This document shows positions 19,457-36,999 of a DNA stretch of 43,944 nt, piece after piece. Position 1 is the first letter of the stretch. The number at the start of each line of letters is the position of its first letter. A program made the translations under genes and the position numbers. Source of the stretch: Alphaproteobacteria bacterium (GTDB taxonomy: Bacteria > Pseudomonadota > Alphaproteobacteria > Caulobacterales > Aquidulcibacteraceae). The notes under the pieces are model-generated. The model was not told the DNA's origin and ran no database searches. It was given only the letters and a program-made list of their open reading frames with translations. The stretch spans positions 1 through 43,944 of the forward strand of contig JAPLOL010000006.1 of the NCBI GenBank assembly GCA_026400735.1. Reading direction: 5' to 3'.

Positions 19457-20059
19457 ATGGCGCGCACGCAAGCGGCTGATTATGATGAGCGAAAGTTAGC
19501 GATCGTCGAACAGGCGGCCGCACTTTTTGCCGCGCGCGGCTTCAACGGAGCGTCGGTGTCCGACATCGCCGAACGCTGCAAAACGTCGAAGAGCCTGATC
19601 TATCACTATTACGAGTCGAAAGAGGACATCCTCTACGACGTCATGATCAGCCACGTGCGCGCGCTGGAGTCCGCCGCCGCAGACGCGCTCGCCGGCAGCG
19701 GCGGTCCTGAGCAAAAGCTCCGCGACCTGACGCAGCTCTTCATGGCGCTCTATGTCGGCGCCGCCGATCGGCACAAAGTGCTGCTCAACGACCTCGACTA
19801 CGTGCCCAAAGCCCGCCGCGCCGAAATCGTGGAAGTGCAGCGCGGGCTGATCGAAAGCGTCCGCAAGCTCCTGGTTGAGATCGAGCCGTCGCTGAAGAAG
19901 CAAACCGGCACCAGTTTGACCGCCGCCATGCTCTTCTTCGGCACAATCAACTGGACCCACACTTGGTACGACCCCAAAGGCGCAATCACTCACGATGCGC
20001 TCGCCAACATGGCCGTGGATCTAACGCTTGGCGGCATCGCGCGCGCCGCCGAAGGCTAA
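19457..20059 (+). CDS. TetR/AcrR-family regulator, probable PaaR-type repressor of phenylacetate catabolism
   Basis: A 200-aa regulator. The HTH spans about residues 10-60: ALFAARGFNGASVSDIAERC then SKSLIYHYYESKEDILYDV. The C-terminal ligand domain contains HKVLLNDLDYVP and a TINWTHTWYDPKG segment near the end, reminiscent of TetR_C_17-type regulators of acyl-CoA metabolism. It borders the paa genes: its stop overlaps by 4 bases the convergent methyltransferase gene that trails paaE. This neighbourhood and the TetR-like palindrome before paaA suggest it represses paa genes until phenylacetyl-CoA appears; that link is inference. No operator is evident before its own start. Confidence 0.82.
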   Translation: MARTQAADYDERKLAIVEQAAALFAARGFNGASVSDIAERCKTSKSLIYHYYESKEDILYDVMISHVRALESAAADALAGSGGPEQKLRDLTQLFMALYVGAADRHKVLLNDLDYVPKARRAEIVEVQRGLIESVRKLLVEIEPSLKKQTGTSLTAAMLFFGTINWTHTWYDPKGAITHDALANMAVDLTLGGIARAAEG

Positions 20060-20775
20060 AGCGGCTTCCGCCACTCCATTACTACGAACCACGGTACGCG
20101 ACGATAGCGCTCTGCCTTTGGTTCCGGTGCGCCAGCGATCGGTGCGGGCTCATCAAAGAAGCGCAGCTCAAGCCCATGCCGCAAGAACTCGCGCATGTAA
20201 GTGCTGAGCGGCCGATGGTGATTGACGATGCGAATGCCGCGCCACGCGGTCCAGAAGCCGCGTTCATCAAGATAGTGATCGACCGGATAATGCTTCAGCT
20301 CGCCTCCGAACCCGCGCACCCAACCCGTCTCCGCGCCCGCCGTGTTGAAGCTGTTGCAATTGGCGATCAGCAGCGTGCCGCTTGGTTTCAGTACACGCGC
20401 CATCTCCGCGATCGGCGCGCTGATCTCTGGCATGTCGAGCAAGCTGAGATAACTGACGACCAGATCAAAGCTCGCATCCTCCGCGGGAAGCGCATCGCCT
20501 GGTGCTTCGATGTAAACGCCGCTCGGATCGAGCTCACGCGCGCGTTCAAGCAGTGCGCGCGTTGGATCAGCGCCTGTGCATGAAACACCTTCGGCGCTCA
20601 GCATCCGGCAAAACCGGCCTTCACCGCAGCCGACATCGAGCATCGTCTTCGGCTTTGCCGCCAACGCACGCGGCAGCATCACGGGATCAAGCACATAGCG
20701 GCGGCCGAAATCGCCGTGCTCACCCATGTCCGCGATCCAAGCGGCCGCGGACTCGTTCCAACCATTTTCAGACAT
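20056..20775 (-). CDS. Class I SAM-dependent methyltransferase
   Basis: A 239-aa Rossmann-fold methyltransferase (Methyltransf_11/25 type). Motif I is TMLDVGCGEGRFCRML (about 43-58), an acidic residue ends strand 2 (CTGADP), and DLVVSYLSLLDMPE followed by MARVLKPSGTLLIAN is the motif II/III region. The substrate is unknown. It follows paaE by only 3 bases on the same strand, so it is probably transcribed with paaABCDE, although methyltransferases are not part of the standard pathway. No signal peptide; presumed cytosolic. Confidence 0.82.
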   Translation of the reverse strand: MSENGWNESAAAWIADMGEHGDFGRRYVLDPVMLPRALAAKPKTMLDVGCGEGRFCRMLSAEGVSCTGADPTRALLERARELDPSGVYIEAPGDALPAEDASFDLVVSYLSLLDMPEISAPIAEMARVLKPSGTLLIANCNSFNTAGAETGWVRGFGGELKHYPVDHYLDERGFWTAWRGIRIVNHHRPLSTYMREFLRHGLELRFFDEPAPIAGAPEPKAERYRRVPWFVVMEWRKPL

Positions 20776-20778
20776 GAC

Positions 20779-21858
20779 TTAGACGTCGTAGGTCAGCGCC
20801 ACGCCTTCGGTAAGAGGTGTTGCTTGGCAGGTTAGCACGTAGCCGTCGGCGATCTCCTGCTCGGAGAGGCCGTAATTCACCTTCATGCTCACTTCGCCCG
20901 CCGTCACCTTGGCGCGGCACGTCGCGCAAACGCCGCCTTTGCACGCGAACGGCGCGGGCAGGCCCGCAGCGCGGACGTTGTCCAAGATCGAATGGTTCTT
21001 CGGATCGAACGCGACTTGCATGCGCCGGCCATTGAGCGTGACGCTCATCTTCAGGCCTGCGGCTTTCTCTTCCAGCGCGCGGGCCGCGGCGGCTTGGGCT
21101 GCGGAGAGCGGTCCGGTGGTAAAGCGCTCGATCAGGATACGCTGCTTTTCGACGTTCTTAGCAAGCAGCGCCTCTTCTGCCGCATCCATCATCGGGCCGG
21201 GACCGCAAATGAAGAAGGTGTCGACGTTTTCAGGCTTTACGAGTGAGGAGAGCAGCGTCTCGACTTTTGTGCGATCGAGGCGGCCGTTGAAGAGTTCGAT
21301 CTCTTCTTCTTCGTCTTCGAGGAAATGATAAACGCTGAGCCGATCGATGTAGCGATCCTTCAGCCCCGCAATCTCTTCCAGGAACATCACGCCCATAGAA
21401 TTGCGGTTGCCGTAGAAGAGCTTGAACCGTGAGTGCGGCTCCATCGCCAGCGCCGTCTTCATCAGCGACAGGATCGGCGTAATCCCCGACCCCCCCGCGA
21501 ACGCCACATATTCGCGCCGCGCCTCCGGATCGAAGCTCCAGCAAAACGAACCGTGCGGCGCCATCACCTCAAGCTCGTCGCCGGCCTTTAGCTCATCGTT
21601 CACCCAGCTCGAAAACGCGCCGCCCGCAATCTTCTTGACGCCAATCTTCAGCACGCCTTCGCTCGGCGAAACACACACGGAATAATTGCGCCGCATCTCT
21701 TCGCCGCCAAACTCACGGCGAAAGGTGAGGTGTTGGCCAGCTTTGAACGCAAACACCTCACGCAACGCATGGGGTAGCTCAAAGCGCACCGACACCGCAT
21801 CCGGCGTCTCGCGCTTCACTTCGGCCACGCGCAGTTTGTGAAAATCGATGCTCGCCAT
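20779..21858 (-). CDS. paaE: 1,2-phenylacetyl-CoA epoxidase reductase subunit PaaE
   Basis: A 359-aa NADPH-dependent reductase that feeds electrons to the PaaABC epoxidase. An N-terminal FAD-binding ferredoxin-reductase domain (RREFGGEEMRRNYSVC) is followed by the NAD(P)-binding domain (FAGGSGITPILSLM; FICGPGPMMDAAE). A C-terminal plant-type [2Fe-2S] domain has cysteines in FACKGGVCATC and VLTCQA. ATG 21858 is chosen because it forms TGATG with the paaD stop; an ATG three codons upstream is possible. The length fits E. coli PaaE (356 aa). Confidence 0.95.
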   Translation of the reverse strand: MASIDFHKLRVAEVKRETPDAVSVRFELPHALREVFAFKAGQHLTFRREFGGEEMRRNYSVCVSPSEGVLKIGVKKIAGGAFSSWVNDELKAGDELEVMAPHGSFCWSFDPEARREYVAFAGGSGITPILSLMKTALAMEPHSRFKLFYGNRNSMGVMFLEEIAGLKDRYIDRLSVYHFLEDEEEEIELFNGRLDRTKVETLLSSLVKPENVDTFFICGPGPMMDAAEEALLAKNVEKQRILIERFTTGPLSAAQAAAARALEEKAAGLKMSVTLNGRRMQVAFDPKNHSILDNVRAAGLPAPFACKGGVCATCRAKVTAGEVSMKVNYGLSEQEIADGYVLTCQATPLTEGVALTYDV

Positions 21859-22343
21859 CAGTGACACTTAAACCGGTCAAACGGCTCCGCGCACGCCTTG
21901 CAGCGCCACAGCGCCTTGCACGGCGTGGAGCCAAAACGCGAAAGCTCTTCAGTGTCGCTTGAGCCACACTGCGGGCATTCGGCGGCGGTCTGGTTCTTCA
22001 GCGAAGCCGTCGCTGCGCCCTTCGGCGGCGGCGCAATCCCGTAAGCGCGCAAATCTTCACGGCCTTTATCGCTGATCCAGTCGGTGGACCAAGGCGGCGA
22101 GAGCGTCGTTTCGATCGCGACGTTCGCAAATCCGTTCGCATCCAGCGCCTCGCGGATCGATTGCTCGATCGCGATCGTCGCCGGGCAGCCAGTGTACGTC
22201 GGCGTGATCGTCACCGTATCCGCCGCGATCTCGCGCACGATCCCCAGATCAACGACCGACACCGCCGGAATTTCTGGATCAGGCACGCGCGCGAGAATAG
22301 CGCGGATGCGGTCAGTATCGGAGATCGCGCTCACCGCGCTCAC
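21858..22343 (-). CDS. paaD: Phenylacetyl-CoA epoxidase assembly protein PaaD
   Basis: A 161-aa protein. The N-terminal MIP18/DUF59 domain carries VPDPEIPAVSVVDLGIVRE and TYTGCPA, with the conserved cysteine. The C-terminal zinc-ribbon-like part has paired cysteines (CPQCGSSDT; WRCKAC). PaaD is required for phenylacetyl-CoA epoxidase activity and is thought to act in Fe or Fe-S maturation. GTG 22343 gives a GTGA overlap with the paaC stop; another GTG lies three bases upstream. Confidence 0.94.
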   Translation of the reverse strand: MSAVSAISDTDRIRAILARVPDPEIPAVSVVDLGIVREIAADTVTITPTYTGCPATIAIEQSIREALDANGFANVAIETTLSPPWSTDWISDKGREDLRAYGIAPPPKGAATASLKNQTAAECPQCGSSDTEELSRFGSTPCKALWRCKACAEPFDRFKCH

Positions 22344-23089
22344 CACGTCGCGCCCGGATAGGCGCGCTGGAGGAATTGCATGTCGCTCAGCAGATGGCCG
22401 AGATGTTCGGAGTGACGGCCGATGCGCCCGCCGGTCGTTGCGCGGCGCGGAGCAGGGCGCACCAACGTCGCTTCGGCCAACGTCGCATCAATCCGCGCAT
22501 CCCAAGCCGCGCGCAGCGCCGCCTTGTCAACGCCAACGCCAGCCTTGATCGCAGCGGCATCGACCTCATCCATCACGAAGAGCTCGTCAGCGAAGCGCCA
22601 CATCCAATCGAGCCCCGCGATCATGCGCGCTTTGCTCTCGTCGGTGCCGTCACCTAGGCGGATCACCCAATCGCTTGCGAGCGTGGCGTGGTAGGAGGTT
22701 TCCTTCACCGCCTTTGCTGCGATCGCGGCAATCGTCGCATTCTTCGAGGCAGTCAGCGCAGTAAACAGCAGCTCTTGGTAGTGCGAGAACAGAACTTGCC
22801 GCGCGATCGTCTGCGCGAAGTCGCCATTCGGCTGCTCGACCAGCAGGCAATTCGTGAAATCCATCACGTCGCGACGAAAGGCGAGCACATCGCCGTCGCG
22901 ACCTTTGCCTTCAAGCTCGCCAGCCAAGTTCAAAAAATGCGTCGCTTGCCCAACTTGATCTAGCGCCACGTTCGCCAGCGAGAGATCAACCTCAAGCGCC
23001 GGCGCATGCCCGCACCATTCACTCAGCCGCTGACCAAGAATGAGCGAGTCATCGCCCAAGCGCAGCGCATATGTGGCGATCGCATCCAT
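22340..23089 (-). CDS. paaC: Phenylacetyl-CoA epoxidase structural subunit PaaC
   Basis: A 249-aa ferritin-like subunit that partners PaaA. Family features are YALRLGDDSLILGQRLSEWCGHAP at the N-terminus, DQVGQATHFLNLAG, and KAVKETSYHATLASDWVIRLGDG in the middle. In E. coli PaaC keeps the four-helix fold but has lost the diiron site and scaffolds the catalytic subunit. It shares one base with paaB (TAATG) and four with paaD, in the conserved order paaABCDE. Confidence 0.95.
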   Translation of the reverse strand: MDAIATYALRLGDDSLILGQRLSEWCGHAPALEVDLSLANVALDQVGQATHFLNLAGELEGKGRDGDVLAFRRDVMDFTNCLLVEQPNGDFAQTIARQVLFSHYQELLFTALTASKNATIAAIAAKAVKETSYHATLASDWVIRLGDGTDESKARMIAGLDWMWRFADELFVMDEVDAAAIKAGVGVDKAALRAAWDARIDATLAEATLVRPAPRRATTGGRIGRHSEHLGHLLSDMQFLQRAYPGATW

Positions 23090-23382
23090 TAGATGTGCGT
23101 GATGCCGTCTGGAATTTTGTAAAACGTCGGGTGGCGATAGACTTTGTCTTCCGCCGGCTCGAACAACGCGCCCGCATCGCCCGGATCAGACGCCACGATC
23201 TGCGCCGAAGGCAGCACCCAGAGGCTGATGCCCTCCATGCGCCGCGTGTATGTATCGCGCGCGTGCTCAAGCGCCATCTTCGCGTCAACCGCGTGCACGC
23301 TTCCAACGTGGCGATGCGAAAGCCCGCCCTTGCCGCGCACGAACACTTCCCACAGCGGCCATTCCTTGCTCGCGTCGCTCAT
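23089..23382 (-). CDS. paaB: Phenylacetyl-CoA epoxidase subunit PaaB
   Basis: A 97-aa small subunit of the multicomponent monooxygenase. It matches PaaB in size and in WPLWEVFVRGKGGLSHRHVGSV, ALEHARDTYTRR and GISLWVLPSAQI. PaaB bridges PaaAC heterodimers in the E. coli complex. ATG 23382 is supported by the start of homology; a much longer in-frame extension upstream overlaps paaA and is spurious. The start lies 4 bases after the paaA stop. Confidence 0.95.
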   Translation of the reverse strand: MSDASKEWPLWEVFVRGKGGLSHRHVGSVHAVDAKMALEHARDTYTRRMEGISLWVLPSAQIVASDPGDAGALFEPAEDKVYRHPTFYKIPDGITHI

Positions 23383-23386
23383 CGTT

Positions 23387-24376
23387 TCACTCCGCCGCCA
23401 GCTTCGCTGCCGCACGCTTCTCAGCATGCACGCGCGCCGCTTCGCGCACCCAGGCGCCTTCGTCCCAAGCCTTATTGCGGGCCTGCAAGCGTTCCTTCGC
23501 AACCGGCCCTTCGCCGCGCACAACCGCCGCGAACTCTTCCCAATCGACTTCGCCGAAATCGTAAGCGCCGCGCTCTTCGTTCCACTTCAGCTTATCGTCC
23601 GGCACGGTAAGGCCGATCGCTTCAGCCTGCGGCACGCTAATATCGACGAACTTCTGACGCAGATCATCGTTGGTATCGCGCTTAATACGCCAACGCATGC
23701 TCTGCGCCGTGTTCGGCGACTTATCGTCCGGCGGGCCGAACATCATCAGCGACGGCCACCACCAGCGGTTCAGCGCATCTTGCGCCATGCGCTTCTGTTC
23801 GGGCGTGCCGGCGGCGAGATGCATCATGATCTCGTAGCCCTGGCGCTGGTGGAAGCTCTCTTCCTTGCAAATGCGCACCATCGCGCGCGCGTAGGGGCCA
23901 TACGATGTGCGCTGCAGCGGCACCTGGTTCATGATCGCCGCGCCATCGACAAGCCAGCCGATCGCGCCGATGTCCGCCCATGTCAGCGTCGGGTAGTTGA
24001 AAATCGTCGAGTACTTGGCTTTGCCGCTAAGCAGCGCTTCAGTCATCTCATCGCGCGACGTGCCGAGCGTCTCCGCCGCCGCATAGAGATAAAGCCCGTG
24101 GCCGCCTTCATCCTGCACCTTCGCCAGCAGGATCGCCTTACGGCGCAAGTTCGGCGCGCGCGAAATCCAATTGCCTTCCGGCAGCATGCCGACGATCTCG
24201 CTGTGCGCGTGTTGCGACATCTGCCGCACCAGCGTCTTGCGATACGCCTCAGGCATCCAATCCTTCGGCTCGATAAATTCATCGTTGGCGACGCGCGCTT
24301 CGAACGCGGCGATCAGCGCAGGATCTTCGGCGACGGTTTCAGCCTTCGTCTTGCCGGTCATGTCAGTCGTGTACAC
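23387..24376 (-). CDS. paaA: Phenylacetyl-CoA epoxidase catalytic subunit PaaA
   Basis: A 329-aa diiron oxygenase subunit forming 1,2-epoxyphenylacetyl-CoA from phenylacetyl-CoA and O2. Ferritin-like metal-binding motifs are visible: [20 protein letters not shown] and [16 protein letters not shown] (ExxH). The sequence is strongly family-like along its whole length ([20 protein letters not shown] near residue 40). The GTG start gives the familiar MYT N-terminus, with AAGGTG upstream; ATG at 24361 is an alternative. First gene of the minus-strand paaABCDE operon. Its promoter overlaps a TetR-type palindrome. Confidence 0.96.
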
Positions 24377-24399
24377 GGGCGCACCTTTGGAACTTGTCT

Positions 24400-24428
24400 A
24401 CCATAGCATTCGCCGACCGATCGGTCAA
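24400..24428 (-). promoter_or_regulatory. Predicted sigma-70-type promoter of paaABCDE
   Basis: On the minus strand TTGACC (24428-24423) and TATGGT (24405-24400) are separated by exactly 17 bases, a good match to -35/-10 boxes. Transcription would start about 17 bases before the paaA GTG. The -35 box overlaps the palindrome at 24415-24426. Confidence 0.6.
24415..24426. promoter_or_regulatory. Perfect 12-bp palindrome, probable TetR (PaaR) operator of paaA
   Basis: GACCGATCGGTC is a perfect palindrome lying in the predicted paaA promoter, overlapping its -35 box and the paaI stop codon. TetR repressors of phenylacetate genes bind ACCG/CGGT-type inverted repeats, so this is the best candidate site for the TetR regulator encoded at 19457. 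The flanking string AATTGACCGA recurs upstream of paaG at 24863. Confidence 0.65.
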
Positions 24429-24850
24429 TTAATCACCGGACCGCCAATTGTCCGCGAAAGCCCCGTAAATTCAGCGATCACCGCGCCAGCCGCTGTTTTG
24501 ACGCTCACCTGATAGACGCCGCTGCGGCCCGAACGCGAAACCTCGCGCGCCTCTGCGATCAAAACGTCTCCGGCCTGCGCCGGCGCGAGGAACGAAATGC
24601 TGGCGTGCTGCGCGACGGTGTTTTCGTTGCGCGAGTTGCACGCGTACGCGAACGCCGTATCGGCCAACGCGAAGATCATCCCACCATGCGCGCTGCGATG
24701 ACCGTTTAACATGTCGTCGCGCAATGTCATGCGCACCAGCGCGTAGCCTTCGCGCGTGTCATCGATCGAGACGCCCCACGCGGGTCCCGTGCCTTCGCGT
24801 TGCAACAGCGTGTCGGCCACTTGGCGCGCGAGTTTGTCCGCTTCGTTCAT
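24425..24850 (-). CDS. paaI: Hotdog-fold thioesterase PaaI
   Basis: A 141-aa acyl-CoA thioesterase of the PaaI type. The hotdog motif LNGHRSAHGGMIFALADTAF (about 50-69) holds the conserved HGG and catalytic Asp. QHASISFLAPAQAGDVL is the following strand pair. In other bacteria PaaI hydrolyses hydroxyphenylacetyl-CoA and related esters, rescuing CoA when the pathway stalls. ATG 24850 fits the family start; upstream in-frame residues overlap the divergent promoter. It ends 48 bases before paaA on the same strand and is divergent from paaG. Confidence 0.92.
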   Translation of the reverse strand: MNEADKLARQVADTLLQREGTGPAWGVSIDDTREGYALVRMTLRDDMLNGHRSAHGGMIFALADTAFAYACNSRNENTVAQHASISFLAPAQAGDVLIAEAREVSRSGRSGVYQVSVKTAAGAVIAEFTGLSRTIGGPVIN

Positions 24851-24862
24851 GCATCTCTCGTG

Positions 24863-24893
24863 AATTGACCGACCATGCGTTCTATCATACGCC
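24863..24893 (+). promoter_or_regulatory. Possible promoter of paaG with a PaaR half-site
   Basis: TTGACC at 24865-24870 is followed after 17 bases by TACGCC (24888-24893), a weak -10. The context AATTGACCGAYC repeats the left half of the paaA operator in the same relation to a -35 box. The right half is poorly conserved (GCGTTC). It lies in the 68-bp gap between divergent paaI and paaG. Confidence 0.4.
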
Positions 24894-24918
24894 ACGCCAA
24901 CCCGCGAGGAGGCGATCG

Positions 24919-25707
24919 ATGGACTACGAGACCATTCAGCTAGAGATCGCAAACGGCGCCGCGCGCCTGACGCTCAATCGTCCCGATCGCTTGAACAGCT
25001 TCACAGTGCAAATGCACGACGAAGTCTCGCGCGGCCTCGAAGCAGTAGCGAAGAGCGACGCGCGTGTGCTCGTCCTCACCGGCGCTGGCCGCGGCTTTTG
25101 CGCAGGGCAGGACTTGTCCGATCGTGCCGTCGCGCCAGGCGGAGATGGCGTCGATCTCGGTGAGTCACTTGAGAAGCGCTACAATCCGCTGATCCGGCGC
25201 CTGGCGTCGCTCGAAATGCCAGTGATCTGCGCGGTGAACGGCGTCGCTGCTGGCGCCGGCGCCAATATCGCGCTCGCCTGCGATATCGTCATCGCCGCCA
25301 AGAGCGCGAAATTCATTCAAAGCTTCGCCAATATCGGCCTCGTGCCCGATAGCGGCGGCACCTGGACGTTGCCGCGCCTTGCCGGCCAAGCGCGCGCCAT
25401 GGGCCTCACGCTCACCGGCGAGCCGCTGACCGCCGAACGCGCCGAAGCCTGGGGCATGATCTGGAAGTGCGTTGACGACGATAAGCTGCGCGAAGAAACC
25501 GACGCGCTCGCCGCGAAGTTCGCGTCTGCGCCGACCAAAGGTCTCGCCACCACCAAGAAGCTCCTCCGCGAAGGCGCAACGCGCACGCTGACCGAGCAGC
25601 TCGATGTCGAACGCGACGCACAACGCATGCTCGGCCGCACCAGCGATTACAAAGAGGGCGTCGGCGCTTTCATGGAAAAGCGTCAGCCGAAGTTCACCGG
25701 AAACTAA
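24919..25707 (+). CDS. paaG: 2-(1,2-epoxy-1,2-dihydrophenyl)acetyl-CoA isomerase PaaG
   Basis: A 262-aa crotonase-fold enzyme. RGFCAGQDLSDR and AGAGANIALACD form the CoA/oxyanion region, and GLVPDSGGTWTLPRLAG contains the aspartate used by PaaG. It isomerises ring-epoxyphenylacetyl-CoA to the oxepin form, the step before PaaZ. ATG 24919 is preceded by AGGAGG with good spacing; longer in-frame starts upstream run through the divergent promoter. paaZ follows after 3 bases, so they are one operon. Confidence 0.94.
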   Translation: MDYETIQLEIANGAARLTLNRPDRLNSFTVQMHDEVSRGLEAVAKSDARVLVLTGAGRGFCAGQDLSDRAVAPGGDGVDLGESLEKRYNPLIRRLASLEMPVICAVNGVAAGAGANIALACDIVIAAKSAKFIQSFANIGLVPDSGGTWTLPRLAGQARAMGLTLTGEPLTAERAEAWGMIWKCVDDDKLREETDALAAKFASAPTKGLATTKKLLREGATRTLTEQLDVERDAQRMLGRTSDYKEGVGAFMEKRQPKFTGN

Positions 25708-25710
25708 GTC

Positions 25711-27729
25711 ATGAAACCGATCACGCTGCAGAACTACGCCGAAGGCAAATGGGTCGCCGGCGCCGGTGGGCTTGCCGAACTGCGCTCCGCCATCGACGGC
25801 GAAGTCGTCTCGCTCACCTCATCGCAAGGCCTCGACTTCGCGGCGATGCTGAAGCACGCGCGCGAAGAGGGCGGCCCAACATTGCGCGCGCTCACCTTCC
25901 ACCAACGCGCACTGATGCTGAAAGCGCTCGCCGACGCGCTAACCGCCAAGAAAGAAGCGCTATACGAACTCAGCTACAACACCGGCGCCACCAAAGCCGA
26001 CAGCTGGATCGACATCGATGGCGGCATCGGCACCTTCGCGGTCTATCAAGGCAAGGGCCGCCGCGAGCTCCCGAACGAGCGCATCCTGATCGACGGCAAC
26101 ATCGAAGCGCTCTCGCGCAACGGCACGTTCCAAGGTCTTCACGTCTTCACTTCACTTCAAGGCGTCGCCGTCCACATCAACGCCTTCAACTTCCCCGTCT
26201 GGGGTATGCTCGAAAAGCTGGCGCCGACCTTCCTCGCCGGCGTCCCCGCGATCGTGAAGCCAGCGAGCGCGACGAGCTATCTTACCGAAGCCGCCGTCCG
26301 CGTGATGCTCGAAGCCAACGTGCTGCCGAAGGGCGCGTTGCAGCTCATCGTCGGCTCAACCGGCGATCTCTTCGAGCACCTGACAACTCAAGACGTCGTC
26401 TCCTTCACCGGCTCCGCAGCCACGGCGAGCAAGCTCAAAGCGCATCCCGTGATCGTTCGCGAAAGCGTGCGGTTTGTGGCTGAGCAAGATTCGCTCAACG
26501 CTTCCGTCCTCGGTCCGGATGCGAAGGCGGACTCACCCGAATTCGATCTCTTCATCAAAGAGGTCGCCAAGGAAATGACGGTGAAGGCGGGCCAAAAGTG
26601 CACCGCCATCCGCCGCGCCATGGTGCCCGCGGCGCTGCTCGATGCCGCGCAAGACGCGTTGAAGGCGCGCTTGGAAAAAACTGTCGTCGGCGATCCGCGC
26701 GATGAAGCCACACGCATGGGCGCGCTCGTCAGCGCCAGCCAGCGCAACGATGTGCGCGACAAGATCAAAGAGATCAGCGCCGATGCAAAGATCGTCTACG
26801 GCGATCCAAACGCATCCCCATTCAACGAGAAGGGCGCTTTCCTATCGCCAGTTCTGCTTCGTTGTGAAAATCCGTGGCAAGCGCGCGCCGTGCACGATGT
26901 CGAAGCCTTTGGTCCCGTCTCAACTTTGATGCCGTACAAGGACGCCGCCGACGCCATTGCGCTCGCCAATCGCGGCAAAGGCTCGCTCGTCATGAGCGCC
27001 TTCACTTACGACACCGATTTCGCGCGCGAGCTCGTGCTTGGCTCCGGTTCATTCCACGGCCGCATCGCCTTTATCGATCGAGATAGCGCAAAAGAATCCA
27101 CCGGCCACGGTTCGCCGATGCCGCAGATGATTCATGGCGGCCCCGGTCGCGCCGGCGGCGGCGAAGAGATGGGCGGCATTCGCGGCGTCACGCACTACAT
27201 GCAACGCACCGCGCTGCAGGGCCATCCGCGTACGCTCGCCGCAATCGTGAAGCGCTACATCGCCGGCATGCCGACGGAGAACGCAGAACAGCATCCGTTC
27301 CGTCGCAAATTCCACGATCTGCCGATTGGCTATCAGCTCAAAACCAAAGCGCGCGAAATCACGCTCGACGACATCGAGCACTTCGCACACTTCACCGGCG
27401 ATACGTTTTACGCGCACATGGACGAAGAAGCCGCGAAAGCGAACCCGCTCTTCGGCGGCCGCGTCGCGCACGGCTATTTAATCCTAGCGTTCGCGGCCGG
27501 TCTCTTCGTCGATCCCGATCCAGGCCCGGTGCTCGCGAACTACGGCCTCGACAATCTGCGCTTCGTCAAACCCGTGAAGCCGGGCGACACAGTGCAAGTC
27601 GCGCTGACCGTCAAAGACAAAACCTTGCGCAAGCCCGATCAAGGCGAAGTGCGTTGGGATGTCGTTATCACCAATCGCGACGGCGAAACCGTCGCCGCGT
27701 ACGATCTGCTGACGATGAACGCGGCCTAA
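25711..27729 (+). CDS. paaZ: Bifunctional oxepin-CoA hydrolase / 3-oxo-5,6-dehydrosuberyl-CoA semialdehyde dehydrogenase PaaZ
   Basis: A 672-aa fusion. The N-terminal aldehyde dehydrogenase domain (about 1-515) carries glutamate in FVAEQDSLN and the nucleophilic cysteine in KAGQKCTAIRR. The C-terminal MaoC-type (R)-hydratase domain (about 530-672) has FTGDTFYAHMD, the Asp/His catalytic pair, and GGRVAHGYLI. It opens the oxepin ring and oxidises the aldehyde to 3-oxo-5,6-dehydrosuberyl-CoA, which enters beta-oxidation. The full bifunctional length is present. The stop overlaps by 4 bases the convergent aminotransferase gene. PaaH, PaaJ and PaaK, needed in the classic pathway, are not in the window. 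Confidence 0.96.
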   Translation: MKPITLQNYAEGKWVAGAGGLAELRSAIDGEVVSLTSSQGLDFAAMLKHAREEGGPTLRALTFHQRALMLKALADALTAKKEALYELSYNTGATKADSWIDIDGGIGTFAVYQGKGRRELPNERILIDGNIEALSRNGTFQGLHVFTSLQGVAVHINAFNFPVWGMLEKLAPTFLAGVPAIVKPASATSYLTEAAVRVMLEANVLPKGALQLIVGSTGDLFEHLTTQDVVSFTGSAATASKLKAHPVIVRESVRFVAEQDSLNASVLGPDAKADSPEFDLFIKEVAKEMTVKAGQKCTAIRRAMVPAALLDAAQDALKARLEKTVVGDPRDEATRMGALVSASQRNDVRDKIKEISADAKIVYGDPNASPFNEKGAFLSPVLLRCENPWQARAVHDVEAFGPVSTLMPYKDAADAIALANRGKGSLVMSAFTYDTDFARELVLGSGSFHGRIAFIDRDSAKESTGHGSPMPQMIHGGPGRAGGGEEMGGIRGVTHYMQRTALQGHPRTLAAIVKRYIAGMPTENAEQHPFRRKFHDLPIGYQLKTKAREITLDDIEHFAHFTGDTFYAHMDEEAAKANPLFGGRVAHGYLILAFAAGLFVDPDPGPVLANYGLDNLRFVKPVKPGDTVQVALTVKDKTLRKPDQGEVRWDVVITNRDGETVAAYDLLTMNAA

Positions 27730-28886
27730 GCGACAGCCTTCAATGCTTCCACAAAGCGCGGAATGTCCGTCTCACGCAGGCCGGCGACGTTAATCCGTGC
27801 CGAGTCCGTCATGTAAATCCCGTGCTGCTCACGCAGCGCCGTGACTTGCGCGTCGTTCAACGGCAACGTCGAGAACATGCCCTTCTGATCCGCGATCAGA
27901 TGCATCGGCAGCGAATTGACGCGCGAGGCGGCCAATTGCTGACGCGTGCGCTGAATGTGCGAGCGGATCTGATCCAGCTCCGCGCGCCATGAAGTGCGCA
28001 GTGCTTCGTCGCTCAACACTTCGCGTACAATCGCCGCGCCATGATCCGGCGGCATCGAATAATTTGCGCGCGCGATAGCCGCGAGATTGCTCATCACCGC
28101 CGGCCGCGCCTTCTCCGCCGCTTTTGCAAACAGCGCGCCAACTCGCTCACGATAAATGCCAAATGACTTCGCTTCCGAAACCGCGATCACCGCCTCTGGC
28201 ACGCGCTCCAGCAATACGCGCGCACCGGCGACGTCCTCATCAATGCCATCACCAAAGCCTTGATAGGCGAGATCGACGAACGCGATGATGCCGCGCGCGT
28301 TCAACGCATCGGCAATCTCTTTCCACTGCTCAATCGAAAAATCCGCGCCCAGCGGATTGTGGCAGCACGCTTGAATGATAATGCCATCGCCGCGCTCGGC
28401 TTTCGCGAAGCCAGCAATCAGCGCGTCCATATCGATGCGCTGCTCAGCAATATTGAAGAACGGCACATCAATGGGCTCAAGCCGCGCCGCACGTACGATC
28501 GACGGGTGGTTCGGCCAGCAGGGCGCAGGTAGCAGCACGCGCTTGGCGCCGCTCTCGCGCAGCAGATCGCAACCTAAACGCAAAGCTCCGGTGCCGCCGA
28601 CAGCCTGGATCGAAACAAACTCACGCGACATCTCGCCAAATGCGAGCCGGCCTACCAGCTTCAAAAAATCCACATCGCCTTGCTGGCCAACATACGTCTT
28701 CGTCTTTTGGCTCGCGAGCAGCAGCGCTTCGGCATCCTTTACCGCCCGCATCACCGGCGTGTTGCCGGTCGCGTCTTTGTAGACGCCGACACCCAAATCG
28801 ATCTTGTCCGTCCGCGGATCCTCGCGAAACATCTTGATGATCTTCAGGAGCGGATCCGGCGCTTTCGGCGCGAGCGTTTCAATCAT
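27726..28886 (-). CDS. Aromatic amino acid / aspartate aminotransferase (class I, subgroup I-alpha)
   Basis: A 386-aa fold-type I PLP aminotransferase of the AspC/TyrB group. The landmark residues are present: Trp in APCWPNHPSI, Asp/Tyr in FVDLAYQGFGDG, PLP lysine in SEAKSFGIYRERVG, ARANYSMPPDHGAA, and carboxylate-binding arginine in SARINVAGL. The enzyme would interconvert phenylalanine, tyrosine or aspartate with their 2-oxo acids. It follows E2 by 9 bases on the same strand with GAGGCAG before ATG. Being in an operon with a 2-oxoacid dehydrogenase and facing paaZ suggests aromatic amino acid catabolism; aspartate specificity cannot be excluded. Confidence 0.88.
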   Translation of the reverse strand: MIETLAPKAPDPLLKIIKMFREDPRTDKIDLGVGVYKDATGNTPVMRAVKDAEALLLASQKTKTYVGQQGDVDFLKLVGRLAFGEMSREFVSIQAVGGTGALRLGCDLLRESGAKRVLLPAPCWPNHPSIVRAARLEPIDVPFFNIAEQRIDMDALIAGFAKAERGDGIIIQACCHNPLGADFSIEQWKEIADALNARGIIAFVDLAYQGFGDGIDEDVAGARVLLERVPEAVIAVSEAKSFGIYRERVGALFAKAAEKARPAVMSNLAAIARANYSMPPDHGAAIVREVLSDEALRTSWRAELDQIRSHIQRTRQQLAASRVNSLPMHLIADQKGMFSTLPLNDAQVTALREQHGIYMTDSARINVAGLRETDIPRFVEALKAVA

Positions 28887-28895
28887 TGGTCTGCC

Positions 28896-30098
28896 TCAAT
28901 CTTCCAGCGGCCAGGTTTCAAGCACTTCAACGAAGCGCGTGAGCCATGCATTGGTTTGGTGTCCATCGAGCACGCGGTGGTCGATGGTGAGCGAAACGTA
29001 AGCCATCGGCTTGATCACCATCGCGTCGGCGCCGCCGATCGAGCGCACAACGACACGCTTCTCCAGCTTGCCGACGCCAAGGATCGCCGATTGCGGTTGG
29101 TTGATGATGATCGGCGTCGCAACGAGCGAGCCCGAAACGCCGTGGTTCGAAATCGTGAACGTGCCGCCTTGCACGTCCGCTGGCTTCAATTGGTTCTTGC
29201 GCGCGCGCTCGGTGACATCACCAAGCTGTGCTGCAGTTTCCTTCAGCGTCAGCGCCTGCGCGCGCTTGATCACCGGGACGATCAGGCCCTTGTCCCCAAG
29301 CGCCACGCCCATGCCGATATTGGCGTCCTCGAACACTTCGAGAAAATCGTCGTGCCAACGCGCATTAACGTTCGGCGACTCCTTCATCGCCTCTGCCGCG
29401 GCGCGAATAATGTAAGCGGAGTAGGTGAGTGGTGCGCCAGCTTTGGCGTACGCGTCCTTGTGCTTGTTACGGTGCGCCAAAATGGCGGAGAAATCCGCCT
29501 CAAACACCGCAGTCACATGCGGCGCAACAGCGACGGAGCGTGACATGTGCTCAGCGATCGATTTGCGCATCGCATCGTGCGGAATCTTGCCGCCTTTGAC
29601 CGGCGCAGCGGGCGCTTTCGCGACAGCCTTCGCGGGCCCGCGAGCGACATGATCCTGCACATCCTTGTGCGTGATGCGCCCATCGCGTCCGGTGCCAGCA
29701 ACCGTCGCTGCATCGAGGCGATGATCCGAGAGCAACCGCTTCACCAGCGGTGAAAGGCGCATCTCTCGCCCATCGTCGTTTCGCGCGGCCACGTTGGCAG
29801 CCCGCACGCTCGGCGTTTGCATGTTCGTCGACGCCGTTTGTGCCTGCGCCGCTACAACACCAAGCGTTAGCACCCCAAGCGTGGCCCCCGGCGCAGCTTC
29901 GTCGCCCTCATTCAGTGCAATCGATGCCAGCACACCGTCGCCCGGAGACGGCACTTCAACTGCAACCTTATCCGTCTCAAGCTCAACAATCGGCTCATCG
30001 CGCTTCACCGCGTCGCCGACCTTCTTCAGCCACGCCCGCACAACCGACTTCGAGCCCTCTTGCTCCAGCGGCATCACGATGTTCGTCGTGTCGGCCAT
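28896..30098 (-). CDS. E2 dihydrolipoyl acyltransferase of a 2-oxoacid dehydrogenase complex
   Basis: A 400-aa E2 subunit with the standard order. A lipoyl domain comes first (about 1-80; lipoyl-lysine K44 in LETDKVAVEV), then an Ala-rich linker. The peripheral subunit (E3)-binding domain follows (RLSPLVKRLLSDHRLDAATV), and last the catalytic domain ending SLTIDHRVLDGHQTNAWL with the active-site His/Asp. One lipoyl domain and the fused E1 upstream fit branched-chain-type complexes better than pyruvate or 2-oxoglutarate complexes. ATG 30098 makes TGATG with the E1 stop; an upstream in-frame extension is unlikely. An E3 gene is not nearby, so E3 is probably shared from elsewhere. Confidence 0.9.
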   Translation of the reverse strand: MADTTNIVMPLEQEGSKSVVRAWLKKVGDAVKRDEPIVELETDKVAVEVPSPGDGVLASIALNEGDEAAPGATLGVLTLGVVAAQAQTASTNMQTPSVRAANVAARNDDGREMRLSPLVKRLLSDHRLDAATVAGTGRDGRITHKDVQDHVARGPAKAVAKAPAAPVKGGKIPHDAMRKSIAEHMSRSVAVAPHVTAVFEADFSAILAHRNKHKDAYAKAGAPLTYSAYIIRAAAEAMKESPNVNARWHDDFLEVFEDANIGMGVALGDKGLIVPVIKRAQALTLKETAAQLGDVTERARKNQLKPADVQGGTFTISNHGVSGSLVATPIIINQPQSAILGVGKLEKRVVVRSIGGADAMVIKPMAYVSLTIDHRVLDGHQTNAWLTRFVEVLETWPLED

Positions 30099-32176
30099 CA
30101 GAAGCCCACCAACTCTTGCATTTTCGCCGCTATGCGCTCGACCGACGGCAGCGCCCATTCCATTAAGTCGGGATGGTGCGGCGATGGGATGTCCGGCATC
30201 GTCATGCGCGCGACAGGCGCGTCAAGATCAAGGAACGCTTGATCCGCGACGACAGCCGCGATCTCGGCGCCAAAGCCGCCGGTGCCGATATCTTCGTGCA
30301 CGATAAAGCAGCGATGCGTGCGCTTCACGGAAGCCAGCACCGCTTCGCTGTCCCACGGCGCGAGGGTGCGGAGGTCGAGAATGTCCGCGCTGACGTCAGC
30401 TTTCTCAGCCGCTGCCTCGCAACGCTCCACCATTGCACCCCATGCGACGACGGTGATGTCGCTGCCTTCACGCACGCGCTTAGCAACACCAAACGGCAAC
30501 GCGAAATCATCGCCGGGATAGGGGCGCCGCGCGCTCGCTGCATCGAGCATGTTGCGGTGCTCAAGAAACATGACCGGATCGTTGCCGCGCAAGGCTGTGC
30601 GCAACAACCCAACCGCATCTTCGGCGTTCGACGGACACGCAACGCGCCAGCCCGGCGAGTGTACGAACTGCACTTCATTCGTCTGCGAGTGCCAGGGGTC
30701 GCCGCATTTGAAGAAACCAACCGGCATGCGAACCACCATCGGTGCGGCAAAGCGATTGGCTGTTCGCCAACGCATCGTTCCGCAATCGTTGATCTGCTCG
30801 CACGCGGGATCGGCGTATTTGCGGAATTGAATCTCTGGCACCGGCATCAGTCCCGCGATCGCCATGCCGACAGCGCGCCCGATAATGCCTTCTTCCGAAA
30901 GCGAAGTGTCGAACACACGCCCGACGCCATACTTCTCTTGCAAACCAAGCGTCACACCGTGGACGCCACCCTTCGGGCCGACGTCTTCGCCAAACACCAA
31001 CACGCGCGGGTTCACCGCCAGCTCATTATCGAGCACGCGACGGATCGCGGTGATCATGTTGATGCGCGCGCCCTCCGGCTTCGGCTCATCGCTCACGCGC
31101 GGCGCCGTGTAGCCGGCGTTCAGCATGCCGCCTTCGTCCTGCACAGCGCCATCTTCGCTGAACACAAAGCGCGTCACTTGCGACGGCTCGCTTACAGGCC
31201 GCTGATCGGCGATCTGCACTGCGCGTCGCACATTCTCTTCTGCCTTCACCTCAGCCGCATCCCAATCCTTCTCACTCATCAGCGAGGGAACGACATGCGC
31301 CTTCAGCTTCGGCAGCGGATCGCGAGACCACTCCGCGTCGACGACGTCCTTAGACTTGTAAGCCTGCGTGTCCTGAAATGAGTGCCCCTGCAGGCGCGGC
31401 ACAACTAGATGCACGAGGGCAGGGCCGTTGCCGCCGCGCACATGCGTCACCGCATCCGCAATCAACTCCGACGCTTCCCCTGGATCGGTCCCATCACCGT
31501 CGCAAATCTTCAGCCCGGAGAAGCTCGCCAGATTCTTCGCGATGTTCTGACCCGGCGTTTGCAACCACCCTGGCGTCGAAATGCCATAGCCATTGTCTTC
31601 GATGTAAAACAACATCGGCAGCTTCAGCGTCGTCGCCATAGTCAGCGCCGACCAGAAGCCGTTGGTCGCCACCGAGGCGTCGCCGCCAAGCACAACGCTG
31701 ATCGCGCCGTCGAAGCTGCGATCGCCGAGAACGTTCTTCGCGTACTCGATCGCCTGCGCGTAACCGGCGGTCGGTGTGTACTGCGCGCCGACACCGCCGC
31801 ACATCGGGAGCGCCGATGCGCCGTTGCTGTTCGGGTAGTTGAACACGACGCCAATATCGCGCCCGTCGCTGTAGCCACCAGCGCGGCCCATCGCGGAGCC
31901 AAGCGCATCTTCAAGCGCGACGCCGAGCGAAAGCAGTATCGGCCGCGAGCGGTAGTAGCCGCACATCGCGTCCTTCGGGTGCGTGAGGTGCAAGCCGAGC
32001 AGCACTTGCGCCATGTCGTGGCCGCGCGCGCTGAATTGGTAGAAAATCTTCTTCCCCGGAACGAGCTCGCGCTCCTCAATCGCGTCCATCGCGCGCGAGG
32101 TCTGCACGTATTCGACGACGCGCTTCCAATCGGTTTGAGATGCGGATTTAGGGGCGGGCTTCGGCTTGGCGCTCAT
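30098..32176 (-). CDS. Fused E1 alpha-beta thiamine-diphosphate 2-oxoacid dehydrogenase
   Basis: A 692-aa single-chain E1. The alpha half (about 1-350) has the ThDP motif beginning GGDASVATNGFW and ending IEDNGYGIS. The beta half (about 365-692) has VFGEDVGPKGGVHG, FDTSLSEEGIIGRAVGMA and PEIQFRKYADPACEQI. The layout matches branched-chain 2-oxoacid dehydrogenase E1 in which both chains are joined. It decarboxylates a 2-oxo acid and acylates the lipoyl group of E2. ATG 32176 is the family-like start, with a weak Shine-Dalgarno; in-frame codons upstream are not supported. First of the operon with E2 and aminotransferase, and divergent from an Lrp regulator. Its substrate may be phenylpyruvate or a branched-chain oxo acid. 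Confidence 0.9.
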   Translation of the reverse strand: MSAKPKPAPKSASQTDWKRVVEYVQTSRAMDAIEERELVPGKKIFYQFSARGHDMAQVLLGLHLTHPKDAMCGYYRSRPILLSLGVALEDALGSAMGRAGGYSDGRDIGVVFNYPNSNGASALPMCGGVGAQYTPTAGYAQAIEYAKNVLGDRSFDGAISVVLGGDASVATNGFWSALTMATTLKLPMLFYIEDNGYGISTPGWLQTPGQNIAKNLASFSGLKICDGDGTDPGEASELIADAVTHVRGGNGPALVHLVVPRLQGHSFQDTQAYKSKDVVDAEWSRDPLPKLKAHVVPSLMSEKDWDAAEVKAEENVRRAVQIADQRPVSEPSQVTRFVFSEDGAVQDEGGMLNAGYTAPRVSDEPKPEGARINMITAIRRVLDNELAVNPRVLVFGEDVGPKGGVHGVTLGLQEKYGVGRVFDTSLSEEGIIGRAVGMAIAGLMPVPEIQFRKYADPACEQINDCGTMRWRTANRFAAPMVVRMPVGFFKCGDPWHSQTNEVQFVHSPGWRVACPSNAEDAVGLLRTALRGNDPVMFLEHRNMLDAASARRPYPGDDFALPFGVAKRVREGSDITVVAWGAMVERCEAAAEKADVSADILDLRTLAPWDSEAVLASVKRTHRCFIVHEDIGTGGFGAEIAAVVADQAFLDLDAPVARMTMPDIPSPHHPDLMEWALPSVERIAAKMQELVGF

Positions 32177-32181
32177 GGACT

Positions 32182-32220
32182 GGAAATTTACGGCAAATTC
32201 CGCGCAAATACCGTGCAATC
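32182..32220. promoter_or_regulatory. Candidate Lrp-type regulatory region: 11-bp phased repeats and imperfect palindrome
   Basis: Three copies of a GCAAAT-like motif start at 32193, 32204 and 32215, exactly 11 bases apart (GCAAATTCC, GCAAATACC, GCAATCTGCC). They overlap an imperfect 20-bp palindrome at 32182-32201 (GGAA-TT outer arms). All lie in the 120-bp gap between E1 and the divergent Lrp gene. Helically phased sites next to an Lrp/AsnC gene are typical of its autoregulated targets. Binding is inferred, not shown. Confidence 0.4.
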
Positions 32221-32296
32221 TGCCCGACGATGTGCCACAAGATGCACAAAACATGCGGGACAGAGCAATTTATCGCATGAAACGTGAGTTTTTCGG

Positions 32297-32752
32297 ATGG
32301 ATGATGCGGATAAACGGCTTTTAGTTGCGATTCAGCGCGATGCCGCCGTCTCGCAAACCGAACTCGCTGACCACGCGGGCGTATCCGCCAGCCAAGTCTC
32401 ACGCCGGCTCGCGAAGTTGAAGGAGGAGGGGGTGCTGCGCGGCATTGTCGGTGTGCTCGATCCCAAGCTTGCCGGCCTCACGTGCTCCGCGATCATCCGC
32501 GTGCGTTTGCGCGATCACGCGGCTGCAAACGTGAAAGCCTTCCGCGATCTCGTGGAGCGCATGAACGAAGTGACGCTATGCGTGATGACGACAGGCGAAA
32601 CGGACTACCTCATCAAAGTCGTGGCGCGCGACCTGCCGCATTTCCAAGAAATTGTGCAATCGAAACTGTTGCGCTGCGCTGCCATTGCGCACATGGAAAG
32701 TTCGATCATCCTTGAGCACCTCAAGGACACAACGGCGTTGCCGATCGACTAG
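32297..32752 (+). CDS. Lrp/AsnC-family transcriptional regulator (BkdR-like position)
   Basis: A 151-aa feast/famine regulator. The N-terminal HTH is MDDADKRLLVAIQRDA then SQTELADHAGVSASQVSRRL. The C-terminal RAM domain (about 65-145) includes VTLCVMTTGETDYLIKVVARD, the effector-binding sheet. Lrp proteins sense amino acids. Its divergent placement before the E1-E2-aminotransferase operon mirrors bkdR, which activates branched-chain oxoacid dehydrogenase genes. The start at 32297 gives the canonical Lrp N-terminus; the ribosome binding site is weak. The stop overlaps the convergent EAL gene by 4 bases. Confidence 0.9.
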   Translation: MDDADKRLLVAIQRDAAVSQTELADHAGVSASQVSRRLAKLKEEGVLRGIVGVLDPKLAGLTCSAIIRVRLRDHAAANVKAFRDLVERMNEVTLCVMTTGETDYLIKVVARDLPHFQEIVQSKLLRCAAIAHMESSIILEHLKDTTALPID

Positions 32753-36010: not shown

Positions 36011-36802
36011 CTAGTTGAGGTTTCCTGTGCTTTCGAAAAACAGCGCTTGGCTGACTGCGGCACGCACCATGTCTGGAGAATACGGCTTCGTGATAAGGAA
36101 AGTCGGCTCTGGACGTTCGCCGGTCAGCAAGCGGGCCGGGAATGCGGTGATGAAGATCACGGGCACGCTGAACGACGCCAGAATTTCTTTCACCGCATCA
36201 ATGCCGGACGAATTGTCTGCGAGTTGAATGTCGGCGAGCACCAAATCGGGTCGCTCGCGCTTAGCCGCAGCGACAGCACCCGAAGCCGTCGTCTCCATGG
36301 CGCACACTTCATGCCCGGCGCCGGTGATGAGGTCGCTGAGATCCATCGCGATCACGGCTTCGTCTTCGATGATGAGCACGCGCGCTTTGGTCTGGGCATC
36401 GAGCTCCTCGATTGCTTCGTCCAACAATGCGTTCACTTCATCGGCGTCACGGCCCAAAATTTCGCTTGTCTCTTGCGGCGTGAAATTCTCGAGCGTGGTG
36501 AGCAGCAGAACTTGACGGGTCAGAGGCGCGAGTTGGCGCAAGCGCTCTTGAGCCTTCCGGACGTTTGCGCTGTCCTCTTCTTCGGCATCGATCTCGATAT
36601 TCGCGCTTTGCCAAATCCGATGGAAAACCTTGTAGAGGCCGGCGCGCGGCTCCAGATCGCTCGGAAATTCCGCTGGATTCGCAACGATCGCCTCTAGGCT
36701 GGCGGCCACAAAGGCGTCACCGCTGGCCTGGGCGCCCGTCAAAGCCCGCGCATAACGGCGCAGCAGCGGCAAATGAGGCGCGATTTCCCTGGCAAGCGAC
36801 AT
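36011..36802 (-). CDS. phyR: General stress response anti-anti-sigma response regulator PhyR
   Basis: A 263-aa protein with the unique PhyR layout. The N-terminal sigma-like domain (about 1-130; REIAPHLPLLRRYARALTG, LAPLTRQVLLLTTLENFTPQETSEIL) mimics EcfG. The C-terminal receiver domain (about 140-260) has acidic pocket EDE (146-148), phospho-acceptor Asp191 in LADIQL, FITAFP and lysine in ITKPYSP. When phosphorylated it sequesters NepR and frees EcfG. ATG 36802 follows AAGGGG; a longer in-frame start is not supported. It is divergent from nepR-ecfG and has its own exact EcfG promoter at 36886-36910. Confidence 0.96.
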   Translation of the reverse strand: MSLAREIAPHLPLLRRYARALTGAQASGDAFVAASLEAIVANPAEFPSDLEPRAGLYKVFHRIWQSANIEIDAEEEDSANVRKAQERLRQLAPLTRQVLLLTTLENFTPQETSEILGRDADEVNALLDEAIEELDAQTKARVLIIEDEAVIAMDLSDLITGAGHEVCAMETTASGAVAAAKRERPDLVLADIQLADNSSGIDAVKEILASFSVPVIFITAFPARLLTGERPEPTFLITKPYSPDMVRAAVSQALFFESTGNLN

Positions 36803-36885
36803 ATATAACCCCTTGTTCGTGCTAGAATTTTTGTCTTCCGCAGCCACGCTGTGCATGTCATTCTCCCATGCGGCGAGACCAAAGA

Positions 36886-36910
36886 AACGCCGGTTGCTGA
36901 AAAAAGTTCC
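36886..36910 (-). promoter_or_regulatory. EcfG promoter of phyR
   Basis: Minus-strand GGAAC (36910-36906), 16-base spacer, CGTT (36889-36886): exact consensus. It gives a 5' leader of roughly 75 bases before phyR. It lies back to back with the nepR promoter, only 8 bases apart. Confidence 0.85.
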
Positions 36911-36918
36911 GGCGCTGC

Positions 36919-36943
36919 GGAACAGGTCAGGGCACACGGCGTT
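36919..36943 (+). promoter_or_regulatory. EcfG promoter of nepR-ecfG
   Basis: Plus-strand GGAAC (36919-36923), 16-base spacer, CGTT (36940-36943): exact consensus. Transcription would begin about 50 bases before nepR, closing a positive autoregulatory loop through EcfG. Confidence 0.85.
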
Positions 36944-36999
36944 GAGACGGACTAGAGATCTGCCGTTGCGGGCAGGTTTGGCCGATGCGGGGCAGGCGC

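Follow-up and report, generated by a model that had tools for sequence, protein, structure and literature searches.

A fused 2-oxoacid dehydrogenase E1 beside the paa genes is a probable phenylpyruvate dehydrogenase feeding the phenylacetyl-coenzyme A pathway

We analysed a stretch of 43,944 nucleotides (contig JAPLOL010000006.1 of assembly GCA_026400735.1, an alphaproteobacterium of the Caulobacterales), called the window below, in which genes for a fused 2-oxoacid dehydrogenase E1, an E2 acyltransferase and an aromatic aminotransferase lie beside the paa genes of phenylacetyl-coenzyme A (CoA) degradation. To judge by gene content and context, it is highly likely that these three genes encode a phenylpyruvate dehydrogenase complex for phenylalanine catabolism. 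Beyond this locus, the fused E1 probably represents an overlooked and widespread family of phenylpyruvate dehydrogenases, which would serve as a dedicated entry to the Paa pathway and replace the phenylacetate-CoA ligase PaaK in 31 of 77 distinct carriers, their paa clusters then serving phenylalanine and not free phenylacetate, with a fused indolepyruvate oxidoreductase (IOR) as a non-homologous stand-in at the same slot.

The operon and its neighbours are as follows, with scores in bits against the models named.

20779-21867, minus strand: paaE, epoxidase reductase (TIGR02160, 425.2; cut-off 420.8)
21858-22346, minus strand: paaD (TIGR02159, 188.6; cut-off 108.15)
22340-23089, minus strand: paaC (TIGR02158, 291.3; cut-off 133.35)
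23089-23385, minus strand: paaB, start inferred inside the open reading frame 23089-23523 (TIGR02157, 133.3, over residues 55-144 of the long frame)
23387-24361, minus strand: paaA, catalytic epoxidase subunit, start inferred (TIGR02156, 525; cut-off 280)
24425-24850, minus strand: paaI, thioesterase, start inferred (TIGR02286, 143.8; cut-off 118.9)
24919-25707, plus strand: paaG, isomerase, start inferred (TIGR02280, 400.1; cut-off 345.15)
25711-27729, plus strand: paaZ (TIGR02278, 1021.5; cut-off 562.8; full-length model match)
27726-28886, minus strand: aromatic-type aminotransferase of the TyrB/AspC family (NF006719, 447.4; cut-off 377)
28896-30098, minus strand: E2 acyltransferase, start inferred (lipoyl domain PF00364, E3-binding domain PF02817, catalytic domain PF00198)
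30098-32176, minus strand: fused E1 alpha-beta of a 2-oxoacid dehydrogenase, start placed by homologues, longest open reading frame to 32254 (PF00676, PF02779, PF02780)
32297-32752, plus strand: Lrp/AsnC regulator, divergent from E1 (NCBIfam Lrp-family matches, below cut-off)

All genes named in the original prediction, which had been made from the letters of the window, are present with open reading frames. PaaA, B, C, D, E, I, G and Z all exceed their NCBIfam cut-offs, PaaE by a small margin. Both E1 and E2 have the domain make-up expected of these components of a 2-oxoacid dehydrogenase, and the E2 translation contains DHRVLDG. The stop codon of E1 overlaps the ATG of E2 by one base (TGATG), the aminotransferase gene follows E2 after 9 bp, and we read the three as one minus-strand operon, whose aminotransferase end meets paaZ tail to tail with a 4-base overlap. 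Profile matches and coordinates thus confirm the predicted arrangement of an aminotransferase, E2 and fused E1 operon abutting paaZ beside paaABCDE, paaI and paaG. Among the window open reading frames scanned, to which the search was confined without extending to the rest of the genome, neither an E3 (lipoamide dehydrogenase) nor PaaF, PaaH or PaaJ was identified.

The Paa pathway offers one visible step for a 2-oxoacid dehydrogenase, the formation of phenylacetyl-CoA, and we therefore infer phenylpyruvate as the substrate. The aminotransferase would convert phenylalanine to phenylpyruvate, which the thiamine-diphosphate E1 would decarboxylate, passing the phenylacetyl group to the lipoyl arm of E2 for transfer to CoA, while an E3 presumably shared within the cell would re-oxidise the lipoyl group with NAD. 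Flux would then continue from phenylacetyl-CoA through PaaABCE, PaaG and PaaZ, bypassing free phenylacetate and sparing the ATP that PaaK would spend. This is the route from phenylalanine that the original prediction put forward, and it is supported by linkage to paa, co-occurrence with PaaA, the lack of PaaK and IorA and a second E1 pair resembling branched-chain dehydrogenase. Wherever the analysis could address them, the refuting outcomes set by that prediction did not arise.

The fused E1 tracks PaaA across genomes. In a sample of 200 genomes of the order, each at least 90% complete, E1, PaaA and PaaK were sought at the same settings, with thresholds of E ≤ 1e-100 (expectation value) for E1 and 1e-80 for PaaK. 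E1 was found in 27 genomes, PaaA in 38 (37 over the cut-off) and PaaK in 14 (13 over the cut-off). All 27 E1 genomes carried PaaA, and E1 occurred in none of the 162 genomes that lacked PaaA. At the genus level, the five E1 genera were all among the seven PaaA genera of 41 (hypergeometric P = 2.8e-5). The two proteins also vary together inside genera; in the source genus, both occur in 16 genomes and neither in one (G167). PaaK was absent from 19 of the 27 E1 genomes, and the 11 PaaA genomes without E1 comprised six with PaaK (including G149, with PaaA below the cut-off) and five with neither.

A wider set of carriers gave a similar association with PaaA. A contig scan, in which 80 of 461 E1 relatives were kept, included Hyphomonadaceae, Sphingomonadaceae, Pseudomonas, Rhizobium, Shinella, Pseudoroseomonas, Bosea and others among those 80. 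Across 53 further carriers (50 genomes of named loci, for which completeness is not given, and three from a class-wide sample), PaaA was found in 52 (51 over the cut-off) and PaaK in 39 (29 over the cut-off). These searches covered the named loci apart from L115, L130, L137, L141 and L149 and apart from those that are, or were taken to be, members of the sampled order (L070-L088, L103, L110, L118, L134, L135 and L145). Three duplicates were recognised by identical match positions (G558 = G211, G557 = G467 and G573 = G179), leaving 27 + 53 - 3 = 77 distinct carriers; PaaA was found in 76 of these, and PaaK was not found in 31, some of which are incomplete metagenome-assembled genomes (MAGs). 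All eight Pseudomonas E1 carriers had PaaA, compared with 70 of 298 genomes in the family to which one of them belongs (Fisher P = 1.3e-5), three of the eight being themselves among the 298, in which E1 was not sought. The class-wide sample contained E1 in four of 337 genomes, too few for use alone. Among plasmid records, 91 carried E1 and 157 carried PaaA, with Sinorhizobium the commonest genus in both; on a plasmid of Rhizobium sp. 11515TR the two genes lie about 2 kb apart.

We also compared gene order in 79 loci, namely the window and 78 of 80 named loci; L096 and L136 were dropped because the open reading frame picker took an overlapping frame, though both encode E1. E2 lies on the strand of E1 in 77 of the 79. 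An adjacent aminotransferase gene on the same strand was present in 34, of which 13 have it before E1 and 21 after E2. At least one paa gene was in view in 49 of the 79; where named loci had flanks of the full 10 kb, this held for 35 of 49. In four loci, E1-E2 and the paa epoxidase genes form one same-strand run with junctions of 3-31 nucleotides (PaaB was not among the queries of this comparison).

L139, Sphingomonas edaphi: paaA, C and E detected, 3 nucleotides, aminotransferase, E1, E2
L127, Sphingorhabdus soli: paaA, C, D and E, 18 nucleotides, E1, E2
L064, from genome G037: 31 nucleotides between paaE and E1
L067, second copy in genome G139: E1, E2, 18 nucleotides, paaA, C, D and E

Linkage of this kind is seen again in Hyphomonadaceae, Sphingomonadaceae, Rhizobium and others and is therefore not due to chance; conservation in relatives, on which the original prediction could be judged, was thus observed. 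The arrangements differ between loci and are not one inherited block.

PaaK, missing from the window in the original prediction, was not found in the whole source genome either (3.58 Mb in 173 contigs, about 93.5% complete), where the best match scored 26.4 bits against a cut-off of 646.3. At E 1e-80 it was likewise absent from 12 of the 15 other E1-carrying genomes of the source genus in the order sample, including the single-contig, 99% complete G053, so assembly gaps are not the general cause of its absence. IorA, the other entry enzyme at issue, was not found in the source genome, with a best match of 35.6 bits against 650.9 and no match at E 1e-20 in a search for IorA or a fused IOR. A search of the same genome with the E1 query gave three E1 alpha/beta systems: the fused E1 and those on contigs C22 and C155. 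The C22 system is the pyruvate dehydrogenase (PDH), and its beta subunit bears a lipoyl domain. On C155, a separate two-gene E1 scores 551 bits per subunit against the Pseudomonas putida 2-oxoisovalerate dehydrogenase and sits behind a Glu/Leu/Phe/Val-type dehydrogenase, which might also act on phenylalanine. The fused E1 matches the P. putida enzyme (2bp7) at 230 bits to the beta subunit (43% identical) and 37 bits to the alpha subunit. Since the C155 pair is a close match to branched-chain 2-oxoacid dehydrogenase (BCKDH), C22 is PDH and the fused E1 reaches only 230 bits, the fused E1 is a third complex, and by these matches it is neither the branched-chain candidate of this genome nor its pyruvate enzyme.

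The original prediction had itself allowed that the operon might simply encode the branched-chain complex. On that reading the complex would lie beside paa by chance and have the Lrp protein as a BkdR-like regulator. The best solved relatives of the fused E1 are indeed the E1 components of PDH and of the branched-chain enzyme, and the Lrp-type regulator beside bkd operons is BkdR. However, the C155 pair fits the branched-chain role instead, the active-site segments conserved in the fused E1 differ from those of the branched-chain enzyme, and such an enzyme would not be expected to track PaaA. We regard this reading as quite improbable.

The active-site differences were examined in an alignment of 41 homologues 56-96% identical to the window E1. 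The thiamine diphosphate motif begins GD in 34 of the 41 and GE in seven, its Asn is present in all 41, and an LSEEG segment is nearly invariant. In the beta half, the fused E1 has FRKYA(D/E)PA where PDH and BCKDH have FADY..P, and GFFKCGDPWHS(Q/M)T where they have GGG..GG..HSQS. Within the second stretch, the first F is kept in 39 of 41 sequences and FKC in 40; FRKYA and GDPWHS are kept in all 41 and do not occur in the PDH or BCKDH beta chains compared. The fused E1 thus lacks the active-site segments of solved BCKDH beta chains (FADY..P and HSQSPE), and it is not a close match to the assayed bacterial BCKDH E1. By alignment with His146-beta of the human enzyme, the His of the GDPWHS stretch would be catalytic. 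The small residues of the first stretch together with the aromatic ones of the second might suit a phenyl side chain. An AlphaFold model of the E1 had a mean predicted local distance difference test score (pLDDT) of 83.6 and a predicted template modelling score (pTM) of 0.88, and its matches to the beta chains of PDH and BCKDH had target TM-scores of 0.87-0.94; residues 489-498, which adjoin the His of the second stretch, were modelled with low confidence. The comparison with the branched-chain enzymes (P. putida 1qs0/2bp7, human 1dtw and Thermus 1um9) shows the same E1 fold and E2 domain make-up, whereas alpha and beta are fused here, the active-site segments are different, and gene context and distribution follow paa.

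A broader substrate range deserves more weight. The enzyme could be an arylpyruvate dehydrogenase that accepts indole-3-pyruvate and 4-hydroxyphenylpyruvate as well as phenylpyruvate, with phenylacetyl-CoA as one product among several; aromatic aminotransferases are usually broad, and the PaaI model is named hydroxyphenylacetyl-CoA thioesterase. Nevertheless, the genomic association is with the phenylacetyl-CoA gene set, and no indoleacetate or homogentisate family was found among the 30 window open reading frames scanned with NCBIfam, a scan that did not extend to the rest of the genome. We hold this possible, if unlikely. It is very improbable that phenylacetyl-CoA serves mainly as a precursor of a tropone-type or other secondary product and not for growth. 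Such a use has precedent in passages of PMC7089894, where PglB/PglC of Streptomyces serves phenylglycine synthesis, and of the review PMC7497051, where tropones branch off the Paa pathway. Against it, the same 30 frames included no recognised biosynthetic cluster, and the full-length match of PaaZ to its model implies that the product of ring opening can be further oxidised.

Direct formation of phenylacetyl-CoA from phenylpyruvate has parallels in known systems. Passages of PMC7089894 and PMC10685826 state that PglB/PglC of Streptomyces pristinaespiralis is a PDH-like E1 that turns phenylpyruvate into phenylacetyl-CoA, a likeness in described function to the complex proposed here. As described there, PglB/PglC differs in having separate alpha and beta genes and in serving the synthesis of an antibiotic precursor, with paaABCDE as a competing drain. 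A direct route from phenylalanine to phenylacetyl-CoA in Phaeobacter inhibens, outlined in the review PMC7497051, is likewise described as passing from phenylpyruvate to phenylacetyl-CoA without free phenylacetate. Judging by these passages, skipping phenylacetate is thus known already, as is the proposal of a PDH-like phenylpyruvate dehydrogenase for Streptomyces phenylglycine (PMC7089894, PMC10685826). The main text of the GapMind paper (PMC9007349) does not contain the word 'phenylpyruvate', and no paper on the fused E1 was found in the open-licence literature searched; what would be new, as far as that literature shows, is that a fused-E1 complex serves widely as a catabolic entry to Paa, often replacing PaaK. 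The classical Paa pathway with PaaK has paaABCDE, paaG, paaZ and paaI in common with the source genome, where no PaaK was found and entry is proposed to start at the 2-oxo acid, not at the free acid.

Public records name the E1 'pyruvate dehydrogenase' or 'transketolase C-terminal domain-containing protein' and place it beside an E2 or a succinyltransferase. Its closest named relatives, 80-96% identical, are mostly from MAGs called Hyphomonadaceae or Caulobacterales. If the proposed role is correct, an E1-E2 pair now under generic names gains a function, Paa clusters without PaaK are explained, and one could predict which bacteria would use phenylalanine but not phenylacetate for growth. A main aerobic aromatic pathway would also acquire a lipoate-dependent entry with no ATP cost and a gain of NADH. 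Sinorhizobium meliloti 1021 carries a homologue on pSymB (68% identical), and this model symbiont would bring a test within easy reach. The gene is one that we take to be SMb20020, of which the open-licence literature searched gave a mention in one paper, within a table of expression changes.

Two genomes of the order sample, G020 and G174, suggest how the same slot may be filled otherwise. They have PaaA but neither E1 nor PaaK, and just beyond paaE and one further PaaA/PaaC-like gene they carry a fused 1165-residue protein of the IOR family (PRK13030, 1738 and 1751 bits), whose divergent Lrp shares 32% identity with that of the window. A fused IOR was present in all five PaaA genomes without E1 and PaaK; in the other three it lay either on a different contig or some 13 kb away from paaE. 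Its position beside paaE fits an enzyme of equivalent function that is not homologous to E1. The Phaeobacter route also uses an enzyme non-homologous to E1, the ferredoxin-type oxidoreductase Ior1. In L043 (14177-14923) and L046 (5928-6680) a PaaA/PaaC-like protein of about 250 amino acids directly follows paaE (TIGR02156, about 49 bits, far below the cut-off), and weak PaaA matches of similar length stand beside paaA in many genomes of family f5.

Regulation of the two gene sets was approached through their regulators and a palindrome. At the paaE end of the paa set lie two further genes, and the palindrome lies upstream of paaA.

19457-20059, plus strand: TetR-family regulator at the end of the paa set (Pfam TetR_N and TetR_C_24)
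20056-20775: S-adenosylmethionine-dependent methyltransferase, beyond the end of paaE and 3 bp from it
24414-24427, plus strand: palindrome TGACCGNNCGGTCA with one mismatch, candidate TetR operator upstream of paaA

By its position we presume the TetR protein to be PaaR-like. It would probably sense phenylacetyl-CoA, and the Lrp protein would probably sense amino acids. A divergent Lrp gene is directly upstream of E1 in 49 of the 79 loci, and a divergent homologue of the paa-side TetR takes its place in six. Of the 27 loci with a TetR homologue, including the window, 11 have a paa gene next to it, three the paaE-side methyltransferase and six a divergent E1. With at most two mismatches, TGACCGNNCGGTCA was found near the start of paaA (200 bp before to 60 bp after the start of the open reading frame) in 33 of 39 loci, compared with 25 of 516 control regions. 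At TetR-divergent E1 promoters it was found with at most three mismatches in six of six (at most two in two of six), compared with 98 of the 516 controls; five of these sites share a TGACC or CGACC-GTCC-type form and that of L109 differs. Lrp-divergent E1 promoters were at background (8 of 49), and over the whole window the count of TGACCGNNCGGTCA was not above chance (3 versus 2.4 expected). As the palindrome was taken from the same data, partly from the same E1 promoters, the test is post hoc and suggestive only. A pattern that we take to be of the PaaR type, CNAACGNNCGTTNG, gave no useful signal. The methyltransferase had homologues only in loci of close relatives, among the loci fetched.

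Several observations weigh against the phenylpyruvate dehydrogenase reading or limit its reach. Seven of the 41 aligned homologues have Glu in place of Asp in the thiamine diphosphate motif. Fourteen of the 49 named loci with full flanks have no paa gene within about 10 kb, Pseudomonas being among the unlinked; in the 12 of these 14 genomes that were searched, the other two being those of L088 and L145, PaaA was present elsewhere in all 12. At positions 13333-15347 of locus L088, E1-E2-aminotransferase is followed by a shortened paaE (267 amino acids, profile positions 1-254 of 352), and no paaABCD, close paaG or paaZ was in view in its 10 kb flank, beyond which that genome was not searched; this state reflects either a deletion or an assembly fault. 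One E1 carrier, the Oleiphilaceae MAG G543, gave no PaaA, and on a Paracoccus plasmid the two E1 neighbours tested are enzymes of lysine catabolism. Related genomes are non-independent samples. Many carriers keep PaaK (8 in the set of 27 and 39 in that of 53), and the complex is thus frequently not the sole entry. PaaK absence was not clearly commoner in E1 carriers (19 of 27) than in PaaA genomes without E1 (5 of 11), a comparison made on the counts without a formal test, and it was rejected as a statistical partner of E1. The fused IOR was rejected as a marker of PaaA genomes, being common in genomes without PaaA too (102 of 200 had some IOR match at E 1e-20), and for this reason only its paa-side position in G020 and G174 counts as evidence. 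The E1 promoter of the window has no TGACCGNNCGGTCA site, the best candidate having five mismatches.

Three minor observations were made in passing. In the single-contig genome G187 of the source genus, the E1 is split over two reading frames (contig C1, 632237-634098), which may be a sequencing error or a broken gene. Elsewhere in the window, the model of a fimbrial outer-membrane usher (NF011760) matched positions 12604-14829 weakly, at 75.6 bits with the cut-off at 752. Positions 36011-39469 encode a PhyR-family response regulator, which exceeds its cut-off, and a sensor kinase with a weak likeness to PhyK (170 bits against 750), a pair that suggests the alphaproteobacterial general stress response set.

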